Origin: Haladaptatus sp. ZSTT2
GTDB taxonomy: Archaea; Halobacteriota; Halobacteria; Halobacteriales; Halococcaceae
Length of the DNA: 64,000 bases
Assembly: GCF_037081775.1 (NCBI RefSeq)
Contig: NZ_JBAMHQ010000001.1
Coordinates: 1,426,001 to 1,490,000 of the forward strand
Reading direction: 5' to 3'
Part shown: piece by piece, positions 21,167-30,222 of the stretch
Numbering within the stretch: the stretch's first letter is position 1
How the letters are laid out: every line of letters begins with the position of its first letter
Program-made: the position numbers and the translations under genes
Notes under the pieces: generated by a model
Seen by the model: only the letters and a program-made list of their open reading frames with translations
What the model was told of the DNA's origin: nothing
The model's database searches: none

Positions 21167-21187
21167 GACGAATTGCTTACTTCGAGT

Positions 21188-21835
21188 GTGGCGTCCCCGT
21201 TCGATATTCTCGGGATTGAGTCGGATGCAGACGAGGCGGAGATTGTCGAAGCATACAGAGCGCGAGTCAAAGAAGTCCACCCAGACCGTGGTGGCTCTGT
21301 CCGCGAGTTCAAAGCCGTCCAGACAGCGTACGCACAGATTGAGGCGGGCTACGACCCCGCAGCCGAACCAGACAACGAGCAGGCTCCAGAGCCAGCAGAA
21401 GACGAGCGCGAAGAGACGAAAGTCGAGTTTCTCAACTACGAGGTGTTCGACGACTTCGGCTGGGAGATTACCGACGCGGAACTGTTCTCGAAAGCCGCGA
21501 GTGAAACGCTCATGCCAGCGGATTACGGCGAGCTGCTCGCTCACCCGCGCGATTCGCTCTTAGAGAGCGCAGAAGAAGTCGGCTTCTCGTGGCCGTTTGC
21601 GTGTCGGGGCGGTGCCTGTGCGAACTGTGCGGTCGCGGTCATCGAAGGCGACATGGAGATGCCGCCAAACCACGTCCTCTCGCCGTCGATGATGGAAAAC
21701 GGCATTCGCCTCTCGTGTGTGGGGCGGCCGTGTACTGACGAACTTAAAGTCGTGTTCAACGTCAAACACCTGCCCGGGCTCGACGAACTCAAACTGCCCT
21801 CACAACGCTTCGAAACAGCAAAAGCAGAGGAATGA
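21188..21835 (+). CDS. J-domain / 2Fe-2S ferredoxin fusion protein
   Basis: 215 residues from GTG 21188 (VASPFDILGIE), supported by a TATA-like box; a TTG at 21173 would add five residues. Residues about 1-50 form a J-domain (FDILGIESDADEAEIVEAYR, then HPDRGG with the HPD tripeptide), normally the part of DnaJ that drives Hsp70 ATP hydrolysis. After an acidic linker, residues about 80-215 form a plant-type 2Fe-2S ferredoxin: CRGGACANC plus a later Cys in RLSCVGR. The J-part may recruit DnaK for cluster insertion, or act as a docking module; this is inference. Convergent with the halocyanin gene. Confidence 0.82.
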   Translation: MASPFDILGIESDADEAEIVEAYRARVKEVHPDRGGSVREFKAVQTAYAQIEAGYDPAAEPDNEQAPEPAEDEREETKVEFLNYEVFDDFGWEITDAELFSKAASETLMPADYGELLAHPRDSLLESAEEVGFSWPFACRGGACANCAVAVIEGDMEMPPNHVLSPSMMENGIRLSCVGRPCTDELKVVFNVKHLPGLDELKLPSQRFETAKAEE

Positions 21836-21842
21836 CGCGCGC

Positions 21843-22847
21843 TTAGGCGTCGGTTCGGGTGGTGTCTTTTACGTGCTGGCGCAGGCCGTAGAGGAACGGC
21901 GCGCCGAGGACGGTTGCGACTCCGCCCGTGACGACTTTCCCAAGCGGCGAGAGCACGGGGTCTGGCCCGTTTCCGACGAGGACGACCCCCCGCATACCCT
22001 GTTCGCCGTAGGCCGTACACTCGTAGGTGCTGAGGCCGTGGCCGCCGAACTCAACGGCGAAGCGATTGCCCGTGCCCGTGAGGAGGTCGCTGTGATACCC
22101 GAGGTCGGGGTCGGCCACGTCGTATGCTTTGTCGCCCACCCACTCCCAGACGACAGTGGTTCCAGGATCGACGTGGATGGCTGCGGGTTCAAAGGCGAAC
22201 GCGCCGCCATTTCCGTCCGCACCAACTTCGACGGTCACCTGCTCTTTGCCGCGCATATCGACCACTTCGTCGTAGTTGTCCGTCCCCGAGAGCCACCCGT
22301 CGAAGGTCTCTTTCGGGGCGGCGTCGCCTCCCGCCTCGCCCGCGGCCGCGCCGAGTGCGGCGTCTGCGTCGCCAACGACGAGCGCGCCTTTCATCCCCAT
22401 CATCTCGTGGGGCGCACAGGCGTAGCGAGTCACGCCCGCGGCGTCGGGGACGAACTCGAACGTCTCGCCCGCGGTCGAGTAGAACTCAGATTCGAACGAG
22501 CCGTCTTTGGCGACTACGTTGTGCATTCCACCCTCGCCGGTCCACGTCCAGCGAACGGTGGTTCCGGGGTCTATGCGGACGGCCGCCGGTTCGAAGCCGA
22601 ACGACCCGCCGTTTCCGGCCGAACCGACCTCGATGTCGACCGTTCCCTGCCCGCGCAAATCGACGAGTTCGGTCACGTTGTCGGTGTTCGCAAACCACGC
22701 TTCGAGGCTCGAATCAGCCTGCGCGGCGACCGGCTGGCTGAGCAGATTCACGCCGAGCGCGCTCCCGGCCGCGACGCCCGCGGTTGCGGCGAGAAAGCGG
22801 CGTCGGGCGACGGGCAGTTGCGTGTTGTCGGACGCCATCTTCCTCAC
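21843..22847 (-). CDS. Two-domain halocyanin, second copper site altered
   Basis: 334 residues with a Tat leader (VARRRFLAATAGVAAGSAL) and a C-terminal membrane helix (TGGVATVLGAPFLYG), so it is anchored outside. Domain 1 (about 50-160) is a normal type 1 copper halocyanin with ligands His109 (GGMHNVV), Cys144, His147 and Met152 (CAPHEMMGM). Domain 2 (about 182-292) keeps Cys277 and Met285 but has Tyr242 (KAYDV) and Tyr280 (CTAYGEQGM) at the two histidine positions. Its GTG start (22845-22847) overlaps the oxidase stop TGA; ATG 22838 is an alternative. The pair suggests electron transfer between domain 1 and the oxidase. Confidence 0.85.
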   Translation of the reverse strand: MRKMASDNTQLPVARRRFLAATAGVAAGSALGVNLLSQPVAAQADSSLEAWFANTDNVTELVDLRGQGTVDIEVGSAGNGGSFGFEPAAVRIDPGTTVRWTWTGEGGMHNVVAKDGSFESEFYSTAGETFEFVPDAAGVTRYACAPHEMMGMKGALVVGDADAALGAAAGEAGGDAAPKETFDGWLSGTDNYDEVVDMRGKEQVTVEVGADGNGGAFAFEPAAIHVDPGTTVVWEWVGDKAYDVADPDLGYHSDLLTGTGNRFAVEFGGHGLSTYECTAYGEQGMRGVVLVGNGPDPVLSPLGKVVTGGVATVLGAPFLYGLRQHVKDTTRTDA

Positions 22848-23992
22848 CCCTCGTACCCCGCGTACTCCATCAGGCTGCGGAAGATGTCCGTGTCCATCGC
22901 GTCTGTGTAGACGATGCCCGTGAGCATGCCGCCGGGGTAGCTGTCACCGTTGCGGATGTGGTCGACTTTGTGGCAGTGGACGAGGTAGATGCCGGGGTCT
23001 GCGTCGGCCTCGAACTCGATGGTGTAGCGCTCTGCGGGAGCGACGTTCACCACGTCTTGGAGGAACTGAAGCGCCTCTGGCATCGGGCTGCCGTCCTTCT
23101 CGACGATTTTGAATCGGTGGTTGTGGATGTGCAGCGGGTGGCTCATGAAGCCCGCGTTCACCCAGTGGATGCGCACGGTGTCACCGGGTTCGACGATGAG
23201 CGGCGACCCCGTCTCAGGGTGGAGCGTCGCGGGCGCGGACTTGCCGTTGATGGTGAAGGCATCCGCGTGGCGCGAAGAGAGCGAGTACTGGACGTTCTCG
23301 CCGCCGTGCTGGCGCGAGAGGCGGGTGTCCCACTCCTTGACCGTCATGAAGTACTCCTTGTCGGCCTCCTCGTACCCCTTCGGGTCAACGCGGAGGATAC
23401 CGTACATCCCCATCTCCATGTGCATCGGCGTCTGGTAGTGGCAGTGATAGAGGTGGGTTCCCGGAACGTTCGCCGGGATGGTGTAGGTGTGCGATTCGCC
23501 GGGCATGACCGTCACGCCCGTAGTCGTCGGGACGCCGTCGTTCTCCCACGATTTGCGCACGCCGTGGAAGTGGAGCGTGTGGGGAACCTGCATCTCCGAG
23601 TTGTCGAGCGTAATTTTCAGCTCTGCACCCTCGGTGCACCGAAGAATCGGGCCGGGGACGCTCGGGACGCCGTCGTCTGCCTGAAACGCCCACGTGACAG
23701 GGAGCGTGATGGGGCCGTTCATCGTCTCGCCGGGGTGGATGTGGTGGCGCGCCATCACGGACTTGATGGTGACCTCGTGGCCGCGCTCATCTAAGTTCAC
23801 GACTTCGGGCTTTCCCGTCTCCGGCAGGTCGGGGTACGCGCTATTTTGTGAACTCGTGAGCGGAACCGTCCGCGCGGTGGGCTGTGAAACCGCCGTACAG
23901 CCCGCTGTCGCAAACAGTCCGGCGCTGCCGGTCGCGGCGAGGAATTTTCGACGGGAGATGCCAGTTCCAGGTGCTCCAATTCTGTCACTCAT
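22844..23992 (-). CDS. Tat lipoprotein two-domain multicopper oxidase
   Basis: 382 residues. The Tat leader SRRKFLAATGSAGLFATAGC ends in a lipobox at Cys32. Domain 1 has PHTLHFHG (His138, His141, His143) and HLYHCHYQTPMHMEM, giving His183, Cys184, His185 and the axial Met194. Domain 2 has SHPLHIHNH (His285, His288, His290) and VHCHKVDH (His339, Cys340, His341, His345). Cysteines in both domains indicate type 1 sites in both, as in type A two-domain oxidases, unlike NirK nitrite reductase, where only domain 1 has one. Likely oxidises phenols, copper or iron, or nitrite reduction cannot be fully excluded. Overlaps the halocyanin gene, likely one transcript. Confidence 0.82.
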   Translation of the reverse strand: MSDRIGAPGTGISRRKFLAATGSAGLFATAGCTAVSQPTARTVPLTSSQNSAYPDLPETGKPEVVNLDERGHEVTIKSVMARHHIHPGETMNGPITLPVTWAFQADDGVPSVPGPILRCTEGAELKITLDNSEMQVPHTLHFHGVRKSWENDGVPTTTGVTVMPGESHTYTIPANVPGTHLYHCHYQTPMHMEMGMYGILRVDPKGYEEADKEYFMTVKEWDTRLSRQHGGENVQYSLSSRHADAFTINGKSAPATLHPETGSPLIVEPGDTVRIHWVNAGFMSHPLHIHNHRFKIVEKDGSPMPEALQFLQDVVNVAPAERYTIEFEADADPGIYLVHCHKVDHIRNGDSYPGGMLTGIVYTDAMDTDIFRSLMEYAGYEG

Positions 23993-24173: not shown

Positions 24174-26138
24174 GTGACCCTCCACACTGATGTAAGGCAC
24201 ATGGACAACGGCAGGAGTCGGTCGGAGAAAGCCTTGTCACCGCCCAGCGAGTGGGTCGCTCCACCGAGCGCGTTCGTCGCACAGGCGAACGTCACAGACG
24301 AGGGCATCTACGAAGAGTTCGAGGAGAACTGGCCCGAGTGCTGGGAGCACGCCGCGACACTCCTCGACTGGAACCGTCCCTACGAGCGCGTCCTCGACGA
24401 CAGCGACGGGTTTCGCTGGTTTCCCGGCGGAAAACTGAACGCCTCGTACAACTGCGTAGACCGCCACATCGAAGCCGGTCGGAAGAATCAAGCGGCGCTC
24501 ACCTGGGAGGGCGAACTCGGGGAGACACGAACCTACACCTATCAAGCGCTTTCGCGCGAGGTGAACGCCTTTGCGGCGGCGCTACGAGAGTTGGGTGTCG
24601 AAGAGGACGACGTTGTCACCCTCTACATGCCGATGATTCCCGAGTTACCGATTGCGATGCTCGCGTGTGCCAGAATCGGCGCGCCCCATTCGGTCGTCTT
24701 CGCCGGCTTCTCCGCGGACGCCCTCGCCACGAGGATGGAAGAATCCGGCTCGGAACTCATCGTCACCTGTGACGGCTACTACCGCCGAGGCAACGCCATC
24801 ACGATGAAAAACACCACGGACAACGCCTGCCTCGCCGTCCCACAGACAGTCGAACAGGTCGTGGTCACTCGCCTCGGCAACGACGATACCCTCGACCGCC
24901 ACCACGACTACTCCGCGCTCGTCGACGCCCACGAAGGCGAGCGCGTCGAACCCGTCGCCCGCGACGCAGACGACCTCCTCTTTTACATCTACACCTCGGG
25001 GACGACCGGCGAGCCAAAAGAGGTGCGCCACACCACCGGCGGCTACCTCTCTCACGTCGCGTGGACCGCGCGCTCGGTGCTCGACATCAAACCCGAAGAC
25101 ACCCACTTTTGCTCTGCGGACATCGGCTGGATTACCGGCCACTCCTACATCGTCTACGGCCCGCTCGCCCTAGGCGCGACGACCGTCCTCTACGAGGGCA
25201 CGCCGAATCAAGCGGAGAAAGACCGGCTCTGGGAGATTATCGAGCGCAACGCGGTGGACATCTTCTACACCGCATCGACCTCCATCCGGACGTTCGTAAA
25301 GTGGGGTGCTGAGTACCCAGAAAGCCACGACCTCTCCTCGCTGCGCCTGCTCGGCACCGTTGGTGAGCGCATCGACGCCAACGCGTGGCACTGGTATCAC
25401 GAACACGTCGGTGGTGGTGCGTGCCCCATCGTTGATACGTGGTGGCAGACCGAAACCGGCGGGATGATGGTCACCACGCTGCCGGGTGTAGACCGGATGA
25501 AACCCGGTGCAGTGGGCCGACCACTGCCGGGTATCGACGCCGACATCGTTTCCGAACGCGGCGAGACGGTCGCACCCGGCGAACCCGGACGCCTGCTCAT
25601 CACGAAGCCATGGCCGGCGATGCCACAGGGGTTTTGCGATGACGAGTGGGCAGTCACCGACCACGACGCCTACGAGGCGGGCGCGTGGCACTACATCACC
25701 GGCGACCGCGCCGTCGAGACCGACTACATCCAGTTGCTCGGCCGCGAAGACGACGTGGTGAACGTCTCGGGGCATCGAATCGGGACGAAAGAAATCGAGT
25801 CGGCCATCGTCGATGTCGAGGGTGTCGCGGAGGCCGCCGCCGTTGCCGGGCGACGCGACGTACAAGGGCGAACCATCCACGTCTACGTCACGCCAGAGCG
25901 GAACGTCGTCGGCGACGAACAGTTAGAGCAGGCGGTGCGGGATGCCGTTGCGGACGCAATCGGTGAGATTGCCATCCCAGAACGGATTACGTTTGCGCCC
26001 GCACTTCCGAAAACGCGCTCGGGGAAAATCATGCGTCGGCACTTAGAAGCCATCGCCAACGGCGAGCAACTCGGTGACACGAGCGCGCTTCGCAACCCCG
26101 AAGTCGTCGGTGAACTCGAATCCATCGTCGACGAGTGA
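24174..26138 (+). CDS. acsA: Acetyl-CoA synthetase paralogue with altered active-site motifs
   Basis: 654 residues from GTG 24174; ATG 24201 is an alternative. It has the full Acs layout: N-terminal FVAQANVTDEGIYEEFEENW, adenylation motif YTSGTTGEPKEVRHTTGGY, DTWWQTETGG, and C-terminal PKTRSGKIMRR with the catalytic Lys618. Differences from the paralogue at 28234 fall in conserved places: GEPKEV for GQPKGV in the phosphate loop, TASTSIRT for TAPTAIRA, and GERID for GEPIN. Substrate range or activity may be changed; canonical acetate:CoA ligase (AMP-forming) activity is not assured. It is the first gene of an acetate cluster with the regulator and a symporter. Confidence 0.85.
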   Translation: MTLHTDVRHMDNGRSRSEKALSPPSEWVAPPSAFVAQANVTDEGIYEEFEENWPECWEHAATLLDWNRPYERVLDDSDGFRWFPGGKLNASYNCVDRHIEAGRKNQAALTWEGELGETRTYTYQALSREVNAFAAALRELGVEEDDVVTLYMPMIPELPIAMLACARIGAPHSVVFAGFSADALATRMEESGSELIVTCDGYYRRGNAITMKNTTDNACLAVPQTVEQVVVTRLGNDDTLDRHHDYSALVDAHEGERVEPVARDADDLLFYIYTSGTTGEPKEVRHTTGGYLSHVAWTARSVLDIKPEDTHFCSADIGWITGHSYIVYGPLALGATTVLYEGTPNQAEKDRLWEIIERNAVDIFYTASTSIRTFVKWGAEYPESHDLSSLRLLGTVGERIDANAWHWYHEHVGGGACPIVDTWWQTETGGMMVTTLPGVDRMKPGAVGRPLPGIDADIVSERGETVAPGEPGRLLITKPWPAMPQGFCDDEWAVTDHDAYEAGAWHYITGDRAVETDYIQLLGREDDVVNVSGHRIGTKEIESAIVDVEGVAEAAAVAGRRDVQGRTIHVYVTPERNVVGDEQLEQAVRDAVADAIGEIAIPERITFAPALPKTRSGKIMRRHLEAIANGEQLGDTSALRNPEVVGELESIVDE

Positions 26139-26283
26139 GCGTTTCGGAGAAATAGAGAAACGTGAAGGAATTTTCCGAGAGAGTTCGGGAGAAGCTACGC
26201 GAATAGTCGCAATACCCGACTGTGCTCCAACAGAAGCAGGGAAAGAATTAACTGCAGCTCTTTTGAAAAAGACGAATGATAGC
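26139..26283. other. Spacer between first acs gene and bat-like regulator
   Basis: The regulator frame is open back to 26074 but lacks a good start before ATG 26284. The 145-base spacer contains AATTAACTGC near 26247, a plausible promoter region for the regulator. Confidence 0.3.
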
Positions 26284-28020
26284 ATGTCCCGCACAGCGCG
26301 TTCGACGGTGCTCACGCCCGAGGCGTTCGAGCGGCTGAAGCGAGCGACCGAAACCTACCGCGAAGACCTCGTCGTCACGCTGATGGGGGACGCCGGACTC
26401 AGGCCGAGCGAGGTGGTCTGCGTTCGCCCGAGAGACCTGTCCACGCGCGAGCGCGGCGGCGGGTCACACGCCCTTTTGACCGTCGGAACCGACCAAGAGA
26501 GCCGGGTGATGTACCTTCGGCCGGCCGTGGCTCACGACCTCCGGAAGTTCATCTCGGTGAACGACATCGGCCGAGACGAGCCGGTGTTCGACGTGAGCGC
26601 ACGACGCATCCAGATGCTCGTCTCGGACGTGGCCACTCGGACGGACGACGCGCGCTTGCAGTCGGTTTCCTCGCGTGATTTACGCCAGTACTTCGCCCAT
26701 CGCTTGCTAAAAAGAGAGCGCATCCACCCCCAAATCGTGCGGGCGGTCGGCGGGTGGAAGAGCCTCGAAAGCTTAGATCACTACTTCGAACCACCGAGCG
26801 AGGCGGCGATTATCGACGCCTTCACCGCGGAATCGAGGGACCAGCCCGACCGCCCACCCGCCACACCGCAGGCCGGGGGCGATACAGAGTTGGTCGACTG
26901 CATGGCGACGCTTGGCGCGTCTCTGACGGAGGCGACGACGCGCACGGAGGTCGAACGAGCCACCTGTGAAGCGCTCGCGGGCGTCTACCACACGGCGTGG
27001 GTGTGTGACGAACAGGGCGTTCCACGAACCTACGCGAACCACCGCGACGAAGGCGACGTCGACTTACGCGAGGTGGTAGACGAGGCGGGCGGGTTCGACA
27101 GCTTCGAACAGGAGGCAGAAACCGTCGTCCTGCGAAACGTCATGACCCACGTCAGCGGGCGGTTGACCGGGTGTGCACTCGTCGTCGCGCCACTCAAATC
27201 GAGCGACCGCGTCCACGGCCTGCTCTGTGTGGCCCACCAGACGGTCGAATCCGGAGACCGCGAGTTCGTCGCAGACGTCGGCAGACGAGTTGGTGAAGCC
27301 ATCACGTCGCTCGAACGCAAACGGCTGTTGCTCGCGGATACGGGCGTCGAGTTGACGTTTCGCAGTACCGATACCGAGGACTTTCTGGTGGCGACCTCCC
27401 ACGACCTCGGCTGTCGGTTCGAGCTCGAAGGCGCAGTGCCCGTCGAAGCAGACGCCCTGCTGTATTTCGTCACCGTCCGCAACGCGGACGTGCGCGCGGT
27501 GCTCGACCGTATTTCGAGTGCGTCGGGGGTCACCGAAGGCCGGTTGATTGGCGACCACAGCACGGGCGCGGTGCTCGAACTCGTCGTGCGCGACCAGACG
27601 TTCATCTCTGCGCTCGTAGACCGAGGCGGCACGGCTCAGAAACTCACCGTCGAAGACGGCGTTGCGGAGATTGCGGGCGTGTTCTCTCGGCGCGTCGATA
27701 TTCGCTCGGTGGTCGAAACCCTCACACAGGAGTTCCCCGAGTCAGAACTGGTCGCAAAACGCGAGATAGAACAGCCGACCCAGACCACGGCGGGCGTTCG
27801 ACAGGTGATGGAAGACAGCCTCACCGAGAAACAGCGCTCGGTGCTCCGGGCGGCGTACTTCGCTGGCTACTTCGAGTGGCCGCGTGGTTCGACCGCAGAA
27901 GAACTCGCGGCGTCGATGGGCGTCTCCTCACCGACATTGCATAACCACCTGCGGAAAGCCCAACAGAAGGTGCTCACCGCGGTCATCGAGGACACAGACA
28001 GCACCGTCCGCGACGCCTGA
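26284..28020 (+). CDS. Bat-type transcriptional regulator with integrase-like N-domain
   Basis: 578 residues. Residues about 1-180 resemble the catalytic domain of tyrosine recombinases: GLRPSEV (first Arg), SSRDLRQYFAHRLL (second box, histidine replaced), GGWKSLESLDHYF (Trp and Tyr). Residues about 205-370 form a GAF-like sensor (ATCEALAGVYHTAWVCDE). Residues about 370-510 form the bacterio-opsin activator middle domain, and the end is an HTH_10 DNA-binding domain (SLTEKQRSVLRAAYFAGYFEWPRG, MGVSSPTLHNHLRKAQQ). This is the architecture of haloarchaeal Bat-like activators. Between two acs genes it is likely their activator, perhaps sensing an acetate-linked or redox signal; that role is inference. 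Confidence 0.83.
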   Translation: MSRTARSTVLTPEAFERLKRATETYREDLVVTLMGDAGLRPSEVVCVRPRDLSTRERGGGSHALLTVGTDQESRVMYLRPAVAHDLRKFISVNDIGRDEPVFDVSARRIQMLVSDVATRTDDARLQSVSSRDLRQYFAHRLLKRERIHPQIVRAVGGWKSLESLDHYFEPPSEAAIIDAFTAESRDQPDRPPATPQAGGDTELVDCMATLGASLTEATTRTEVERATCEALAGVYHTAWVCDEQGVPRTYANHRDEGDVDLREVVDEAGGFDSFEQEAETVVLRNVMTHVSGRLTGCALVVAPLKSSDRVHGLLCVAHQTVESGDREFVADVGRRVGEAITSLERKRLLLADTGVELTFRSTDTEDFLVATSHDLGCRFELEGAVPVEADALLYFVTVRNADVRAVLDRISSASGVTEGRLIGDHSTGAVLELVVRDQTFISALVDRGGTAQKLTVEDGVAEIAGVFSRRVDIRSVVETLTQEFPESELVAKREIEQPTQTTAGVRQVMEDSLTEKQRSVLRAAYFAGYFEWPRGSTAEELAASMGVSSPTLHNHLRKAQQKVLTAVIEDTDSTVRDA

Positions 28021-28233
28021 ACACATACGCAAACCAGACTTTCTTTCGCAGACAGGAAACGGACACTAACTACTTAGAGACGCGACGGCGGGCACGACAG
28101 CGCGTCCGTGGCTGTGACGCGCCAGAACGCCAAAAACGACCGCGAAAGCGCCGCTTGCGGTTGTGTGTGAACAATTGGGATAGTTAGTTACACCACTTAT
28201 TAGGGAACATAATGGTTGTTAACTCGGCTCACC

Positions 28234-30222
<1,989 letters not shown>

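Follow-up and report, generated by a model that had tools for sequence, protein, structure and literature searches.

The second domain of a two-domain halocyanin encoded in the window, a 64,000-nucleotide stretch of Haladaptatus sp. ZSTT2 DNA, carries tyrosine at both places where a blue-copper site has its copper histidines. This Tyr-Cys-Tyr-Met state recurs in 37 genomes, spread over 10 genera and five families, with Haloprofundus and Halomarina plasmid records among the named carriers, and it occurs together with a two-domain multicopper oxidase encoded directly upstream. The reading that we favour, at a little above even, is that domain 1 alone acts as a blue-copper carrier, with domain 2 conserved as a cupredoxin scaffold that lacks type-1 copper and serves docking or spacing towards the oxidase.

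Translation of the minus strand gave a single unbroken frame of 334 residues from 22847 to 21843, with the stop codon at 21843-21845. The start may be the GTG at 22847 or, equally possibly, the ATG three codons downstream at 22838, which is the one used in a close relative (L044). Residue numbers follow the GTG start unless stated otherwise; the ATG start lowers each by 3 (Y239, C274, Y277, M282). As read from its sequence, the protein is probably TAT-exported and C-terminally anchored, and carries two halocyanin (cupredoxin) domains (Table 1). Residues R12 and R13 of the TAT signal (ATG numbering) are invariant across the clade of Tyr-bearing proteins, here called Y-type. The TIGR03102 model (curated cut-off 93.8 bits) matched the whole protein in two stretches with 207.5 bits, and domain 2 alone scored 98.8 bits, also above the cut-off. 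The initial annotation had assigned His109, Cys144, His147 and Met152 to domain 1 and Tyr242, Cys277, Tyr280 and Met285 to the aligned places of domain 2, and translation confirmed these residues, with both tyrosines encoded by TAC in the raw sequence. Domain 1 thus has the His, Cys, His and Met of a type-1 (blue) copper site. Domain 2 lacks the two histidines that such a site combines with Cys; Tyr242 and Tyr280 replace them, while Cys277 and Met285 are kept. The loop spacing C-x2-(H/Y)-x4-M is common to both domains. Convergent with the halocyanin gene, a frame at 21173-21835 fuses a DnaJ domain to a 2Fe-2S ferredoxin domain, an arrangement that also lies near the halocyanin in L044 and L045. 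Elsewhere in the window, 26074-28020 encodes a bacterio-opsin-activator-like regulator whose N-terminal part resembles, by eye, a tyrosine-recombinase catalytic domain; it sits between acetyl-CoA-synthetase-like genes at 24174-26138 and 28216-30222.

Table 1. Positions in the window of the halocyanin gene, its parts and the oxidase gene upstream.
Feature	Position	Strand	Basis or remark
Two-domain halocyanin gene	21843..22847	-	Open frame; TIGR03102 twice; Pfam Copper-bind
N-terminal TAT-type signal (ARRRFLAATAG..., residues 1-45)	22713..22847	-	Read from sequence
Domain 1, full type-1 copper set H109, C144, H147, M152	22374..22703	-	All four invariant in clade
Domain 2, Y242, C277, Y280, M285 at ligand places	21951..22313	-	Predicted plastocyanin fold
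Tyr242 codon TAC, place of first copper His	22122..22124	-	Raw sequence; Tyr in 37/37 aligned clade members
Cys277 codon	22017..22019	-	Invariant in clade
Tyr280 codon TAC, place of second copper His	22008..22010	-	Raw sequence; Tyr 36/37, His 1/37
Met285 codon	21993..21995	-	Invariant in clade
C-terminal hydrophobic helix, likely membrane anchor	21858..21902	-	Sequence; model helix 313-327 (ATG numbering), low confidence
Two-domain multicopper oxidase, TAT-like signal, lipobox-like GC	22844..23992	-	Upstream of halocyanin, same strand

Relatives were taken from 392 sampled genomes of the order and from further genus and family searches, and were read and aligned. The resulting clade alignment has 37 rows, later finds among them, and shows no variation at Tyr242, Cys277, Met285 or the four domain-1 ligands. 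Tyr280 has one exception, a His in the second copy of Halomarina rubra; this organism has two oxidase/halocyanin units (L048 and L052), one halocyanin being Tyr-Cys-Tyr-Met and the other Tyr-Cys-His-Met. An out-of-sample check agreed with the alignment, as all members found after the motif table, in a motif-blind manner, were Tyr-Cys-Tyr-Met (12/12). The comparison of domain 2 across haloarchaea that the initial annotation had proposed therefore bears out the conservation of its tyrosines, and the occurrence of the same state in 37 independent genomes rules out a sequencing error or frame artefact. Within the phylum sample no subfamily member was found outside the order at a strict threshold. 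The clade alignment contains no newly conserved His in domain 2 that could act as an alternative ligand. Leu249 and Val288, where most relatives have Gly and Ala, respectively, are also largely specific to the clade, and neither is a metal ligand. Phe occurs at neither Tyr242 nor Tyr280 in the 37 aligned members, although Phe/Tyr swaps occur at several other aromatic columns; this is a hint at most, because Tyr142, Tyr192 and Tyr275 are likewise never swapped. Neither the domain family nor the fold nor the class of the partner enzyme is new. What is new is the conserved Tyr-Cys-Tyr-Met ligand set: the open-access literature searched yielded no Tyr-substituted halocyanins and no natural Tyr2Cys cupredoxin sites.

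A maximum-likelihood tree of 74 sequences groups the Y-type proteins in one clade (support 96/95), made up of 24 Tyr-Cys-Tyr-Met proteins and one Tyr-Cys-His-Met protein, and the closest sequences outside this clade (L060, L061, L063, and L076) have His at both places. A single clade with His-bearing sister sequences implies one double His-to-Tyr change, followed by one reversal at position 280. The initial annotation had held that homologues with His at either place would speak against its claim. Such homologues exist (most paralogues, the sister group and the one nested copy with His280), but the conserved Tyr state stands, and they represent the ancestral state and the one reversal. The argument drawn from finding the same residue twice has lost some of its force, because His (CAY) becomes Tyr (TAY) by one C-to-T transition; the long retention of both tyrosines is the stronger evidence. 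A separate L-C-Y-M lineage (support 98/93) gained Tyr at position 280 independently. Its members L072, L073, L074, L075, and L077 are oxidase-linked, and L097 in the same lineage reads Leu-Ser-Tyr-Thr. In NirK-linked or related double halocyanins (L040, L041, L038, L100, L064, and L068) the domain-2 ligands were lost as H-S-D-M, H-S-A-M or H-C-G-M. Cys is gone from the H-S-D-M proteins and also from Y-A-N-M proteins. Since these lineages, with L-C-Y-M, lost their ligands in different ways, copper in domain 2 looks dispensable in double halocyanins.

Within the clade, domain 2 varies no more than domain 1. Mean entropy is 0.90 bits in domain 2 vs. 0.97 bits in domain 1, invariant columns make up 32% vs. 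22%, and dN/dS in ten close pairs ranges over 0.08-0.29 vs. 0.06-0.37. Purifying selection thus acts on domain 2 as strongly as on domain 1, with no sign of decay, and the domain-2 dN/dS rules out a pseudogene. The claim that the double Tyr is not random decay is upheld by the single origin, the retention over five families and these dN/dS values. Conservation of the four ligand places does not by itself prove a functional site, because about one third of the domain-2 columns are invariant anyway.

Structure modelling, the second check that had been proposed, predicted domain 2 as a clean plastocyanin fold. In an AlphaFold2 model of the full protein both domains had pLDDT mostly above 90, with a relative placement that is unreliable (pTM 0.46). 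Domain 2 modelled alone reached pLDDT 94 and pTM 0.88. This predicted model is a Greek-key beta sandwich that matches solved cupredoxins: Synechococcus plastocyanin 1bxu (Z 14.3, 1.4 Å over 89 residues) and two enzyme-tethered cupredoxin domains, one from Nitrosopumilus MCO 9cck (Z 13.2) and one from Thermus NirK 6hbe (Z 12.1). The structure models carry no metal. In cupredoxins the Cys ligand is buried, the place of the second His (here Tyr280) lies on the exposed ligand edge, and Tyr reaches approximately 3 Å further from the backbone than His.

The upstream two-domain multicopper oxidase, absent from the initial annotation, is a fixed neighbour. Its stop codon overlaps the halocyanin GTG start in the window, and in all of the first-found clade relatives (25/25) the halocyanin follows directly on the same strand, starting -4 to +5 nt from the oxidase stop; the later-found members also follow the oxidase (12/12). 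The closest solved relatives of the enzyme are 2zwn (E 1e-40) and 3g5w (E 5e-39). Copper motifs are conserved in both of its domains (PHTLHFHG, HCH...H..GM, HPLHIHNH and HCHxxxH); a type A two-domain multicopper oxidase would have a type-1 Cys in each domain together with the trinuclear-site histidines. In domain 2 of the oxidase a Cys stands between the copper histidines (HCH), whereas 2zwn and 3g5w have HDH there. This suggests type-1 sites in both oxidase domains, and the enzyme is possibly type A as defined in PMC13151041. Relatives of the window oxidase with 64-83% identity are widespread on haloarchaeal plasmids. In Haloprofundus halobius (L053 / L128, approximately 7711-8010 of L128) the oxidase is reduced to its last 100 residues and a trinuclear-site His has become Tyr (MYCH); the adjoining Y-type halocyanin is intact.

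Oxidase linkage extends to other double halocyanins, namely 14 of His-type and all L-C-Y-M proteins (5/5), and a further 21 are linked to NirK. None of these 21 has Tyr at either ligand place. NirK was rejected by position as the partner of the window gene: its neighbour is the paralogue L002, while the window gene, like every Y-type relative, lies next to the two-domain oxidase. That paralogue, from the same genome, shares the two-domain architecture and 43% identity with the window halocyanin, but both of its copper sets are intact (H-C-H-M twice). In Haloferax mediterranei, operons that pair an oxidase with a halocyanin go up under denitrifying conditions (PMC11218638); the likeness to the window unit is one of operon type and implies no orthology.

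Comparison with known systems places the protein as follows. Both domains belong to the same family as the halocyanin of Natronomonas pharaonis (TIGR03102), and the window protein resembles it in the full blue-copper set of domain 1 and in being, as predicted, exported and membrane-anchored. It differs in having two domains per chain, the second with Tyr for both copper histidines, and apparently in its anchor, a C-terminal helix as opposed to the lipid anchor whose prediction is announced in the title of Mattar et al. 1994 (via PMC8305020). Nitrosopumilus MCO 9cck and Thermus scotoductus NirK 6hbe have a C-terminal cupredoxin that resembles domain 2 in fold and is joined to a multicopper enzyme. 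In these two the cupredoxin belongs to the enzyme's own chain, whereas the window halocyanin is a separate, two-domain, anchored protein. The tethered cupredoxin of the Thermus enzyme carries copper, the two type-1 coppers of the enzyme lie approximately 14 Å apart, and in Hyphomicrobium NirK cupredoxin domains interact head-to-head (PMC7201279). Domain 2 also invites comparison with copper-free proteins that keep the cupredoxin fold and lack the copper ligand set. Ephrins are one such group. Early nodulin-like phytocyanins are another (PMC10048054). Domain 2 differs from both in that it keeps Cys and Met and exchanges only the two histidines. It shares the loss of a full ligand set with them, and we know of no relationship between them and domain 2.

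In the mechanism that we favour as the simplest, the halocyanin would be the membrane-anchored redox partner of the oxidase encoded directly upstream, and domain 1 would carry electrons by way of an ordinary blue-copper (type 1) site. Domain 2 would be a cupredoxin that no longer holds type-1 copper and has retained Cys277, Met285 and the loop geometry. Lying between domain 1 and the anchor as a scaffold free of copper, it could set how far apart domain 1 and the oxidase are, and how they dock, when electrons pass between them. Several observations argue for this. The domain-1 ligands never vary, whereas domain 2 lacks both histidines in all members but one, in which one is missing. The two domains are equally conserved, the predicted fold of domain 2 is intact, the oxidase unit is fixed, no new His has appeared, and domain-2 copper looks dispensable in other double halocyanins. 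Enzymes of a related kind, with a cupredoxin tethered at the C-terminus, are known, the Thermus scotoductus NirK being one. The initial annotation had offered another metal, a Tyr-Cys radical, or a docking or dimer domain as explanations. Docking or spacing is the best of the three; the role is putative, and it can now be tied to the oxidase. A pure scaffold, however, needs neither Cys nor two tyrosines at these places, yet Cys277 and Tyr242 never vary in 37 aligned members and Phe takes the place of neither Tyr. The H-S-D-M and Y-A-N-M proteins, by comparison, did lose the Cys.

Because a scaffold explains the strict retention of Cys277 and both tyrosines poorly, a remodelled site for redox chemistry or metal binding, formed by Tyr242, Cys277, Tyr280 and Met285, keeps a real, if minor, share of our belief. 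Such a site might bind Cu or Fe through Cys and phenolate, or form a Tyr/Cys radical relay between domain 1 and the oxidase. It would fit the near-complete retention of all four residues across five families, the lack of Phe at either Tyr, the exactly kept C-x2-Y-x4-M spacing, and the independent gain of Tyr280 in an oxidase-linked lineage (L-C-Y-M) that retains Cys and Met. Two tyrosines are no simple substitute for two histidines around the same metal, however, because of the longer reach of Tyr, and the clade offers no extra conserved ligand His. One member has His280 with the rest of the set kept, and the high share of invariant columns in domain 2 makes four kept places weak proof. The stronger version, a natural Tyr2-Cys-Met site that constitutes a new cupredoxin centre, with a metal held by Cys and phenolate or a Tyr/Cys relay feeding the adjacent oxidase, we regard as rather unlikely.

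It is improbable that domain 2 is a relic that lost its copper by chance, in which C-to-T transitions gave both tyrosines and the rest was kept for the stability of domain 1 and for anchoring. The ease of the change (one transition each, with Tyr280 arising twice and reverting once) and the loss of domain-2 ligands in several other lineages would agree with a relic, but dN/dS is equal in the two domains, the Tyr state has persisted across 37 genomes and is perfectly linked to one oxidase, and in some other ligand-losing lineages Cys has become Ser or Ala. Least probable by our estimate is that the Tyr and Cys residues turn domain 2 into a face for homodimer formation or oxidase docking, for instance by an inter-subunit disulfide or Tyr stacking. 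The exposed place of Tyr280 and the head-to-head contacts in Hyphomicrobium NirK would suit such a face; the buried Cys would not.

Blue-copper domains are model cases of metal tuning by a protein. The Y-type halocyanins provide a natural, long-conserved double His-to-Tyr exchange in which Cys and Met are kept, accompanied by an intact sister domain on the same polypeptide and by a fixed partner enzyme. This system makes it testable whether a cupredoxin site has been converted beyond type-1 copper or a dead site has been retained for docking. Together, the two-domain multicopper oxidase and the double halocyanin also define a haloarchaeal electron-transfer unit of two genes, in which electrons would be exchanged between the two proteins.
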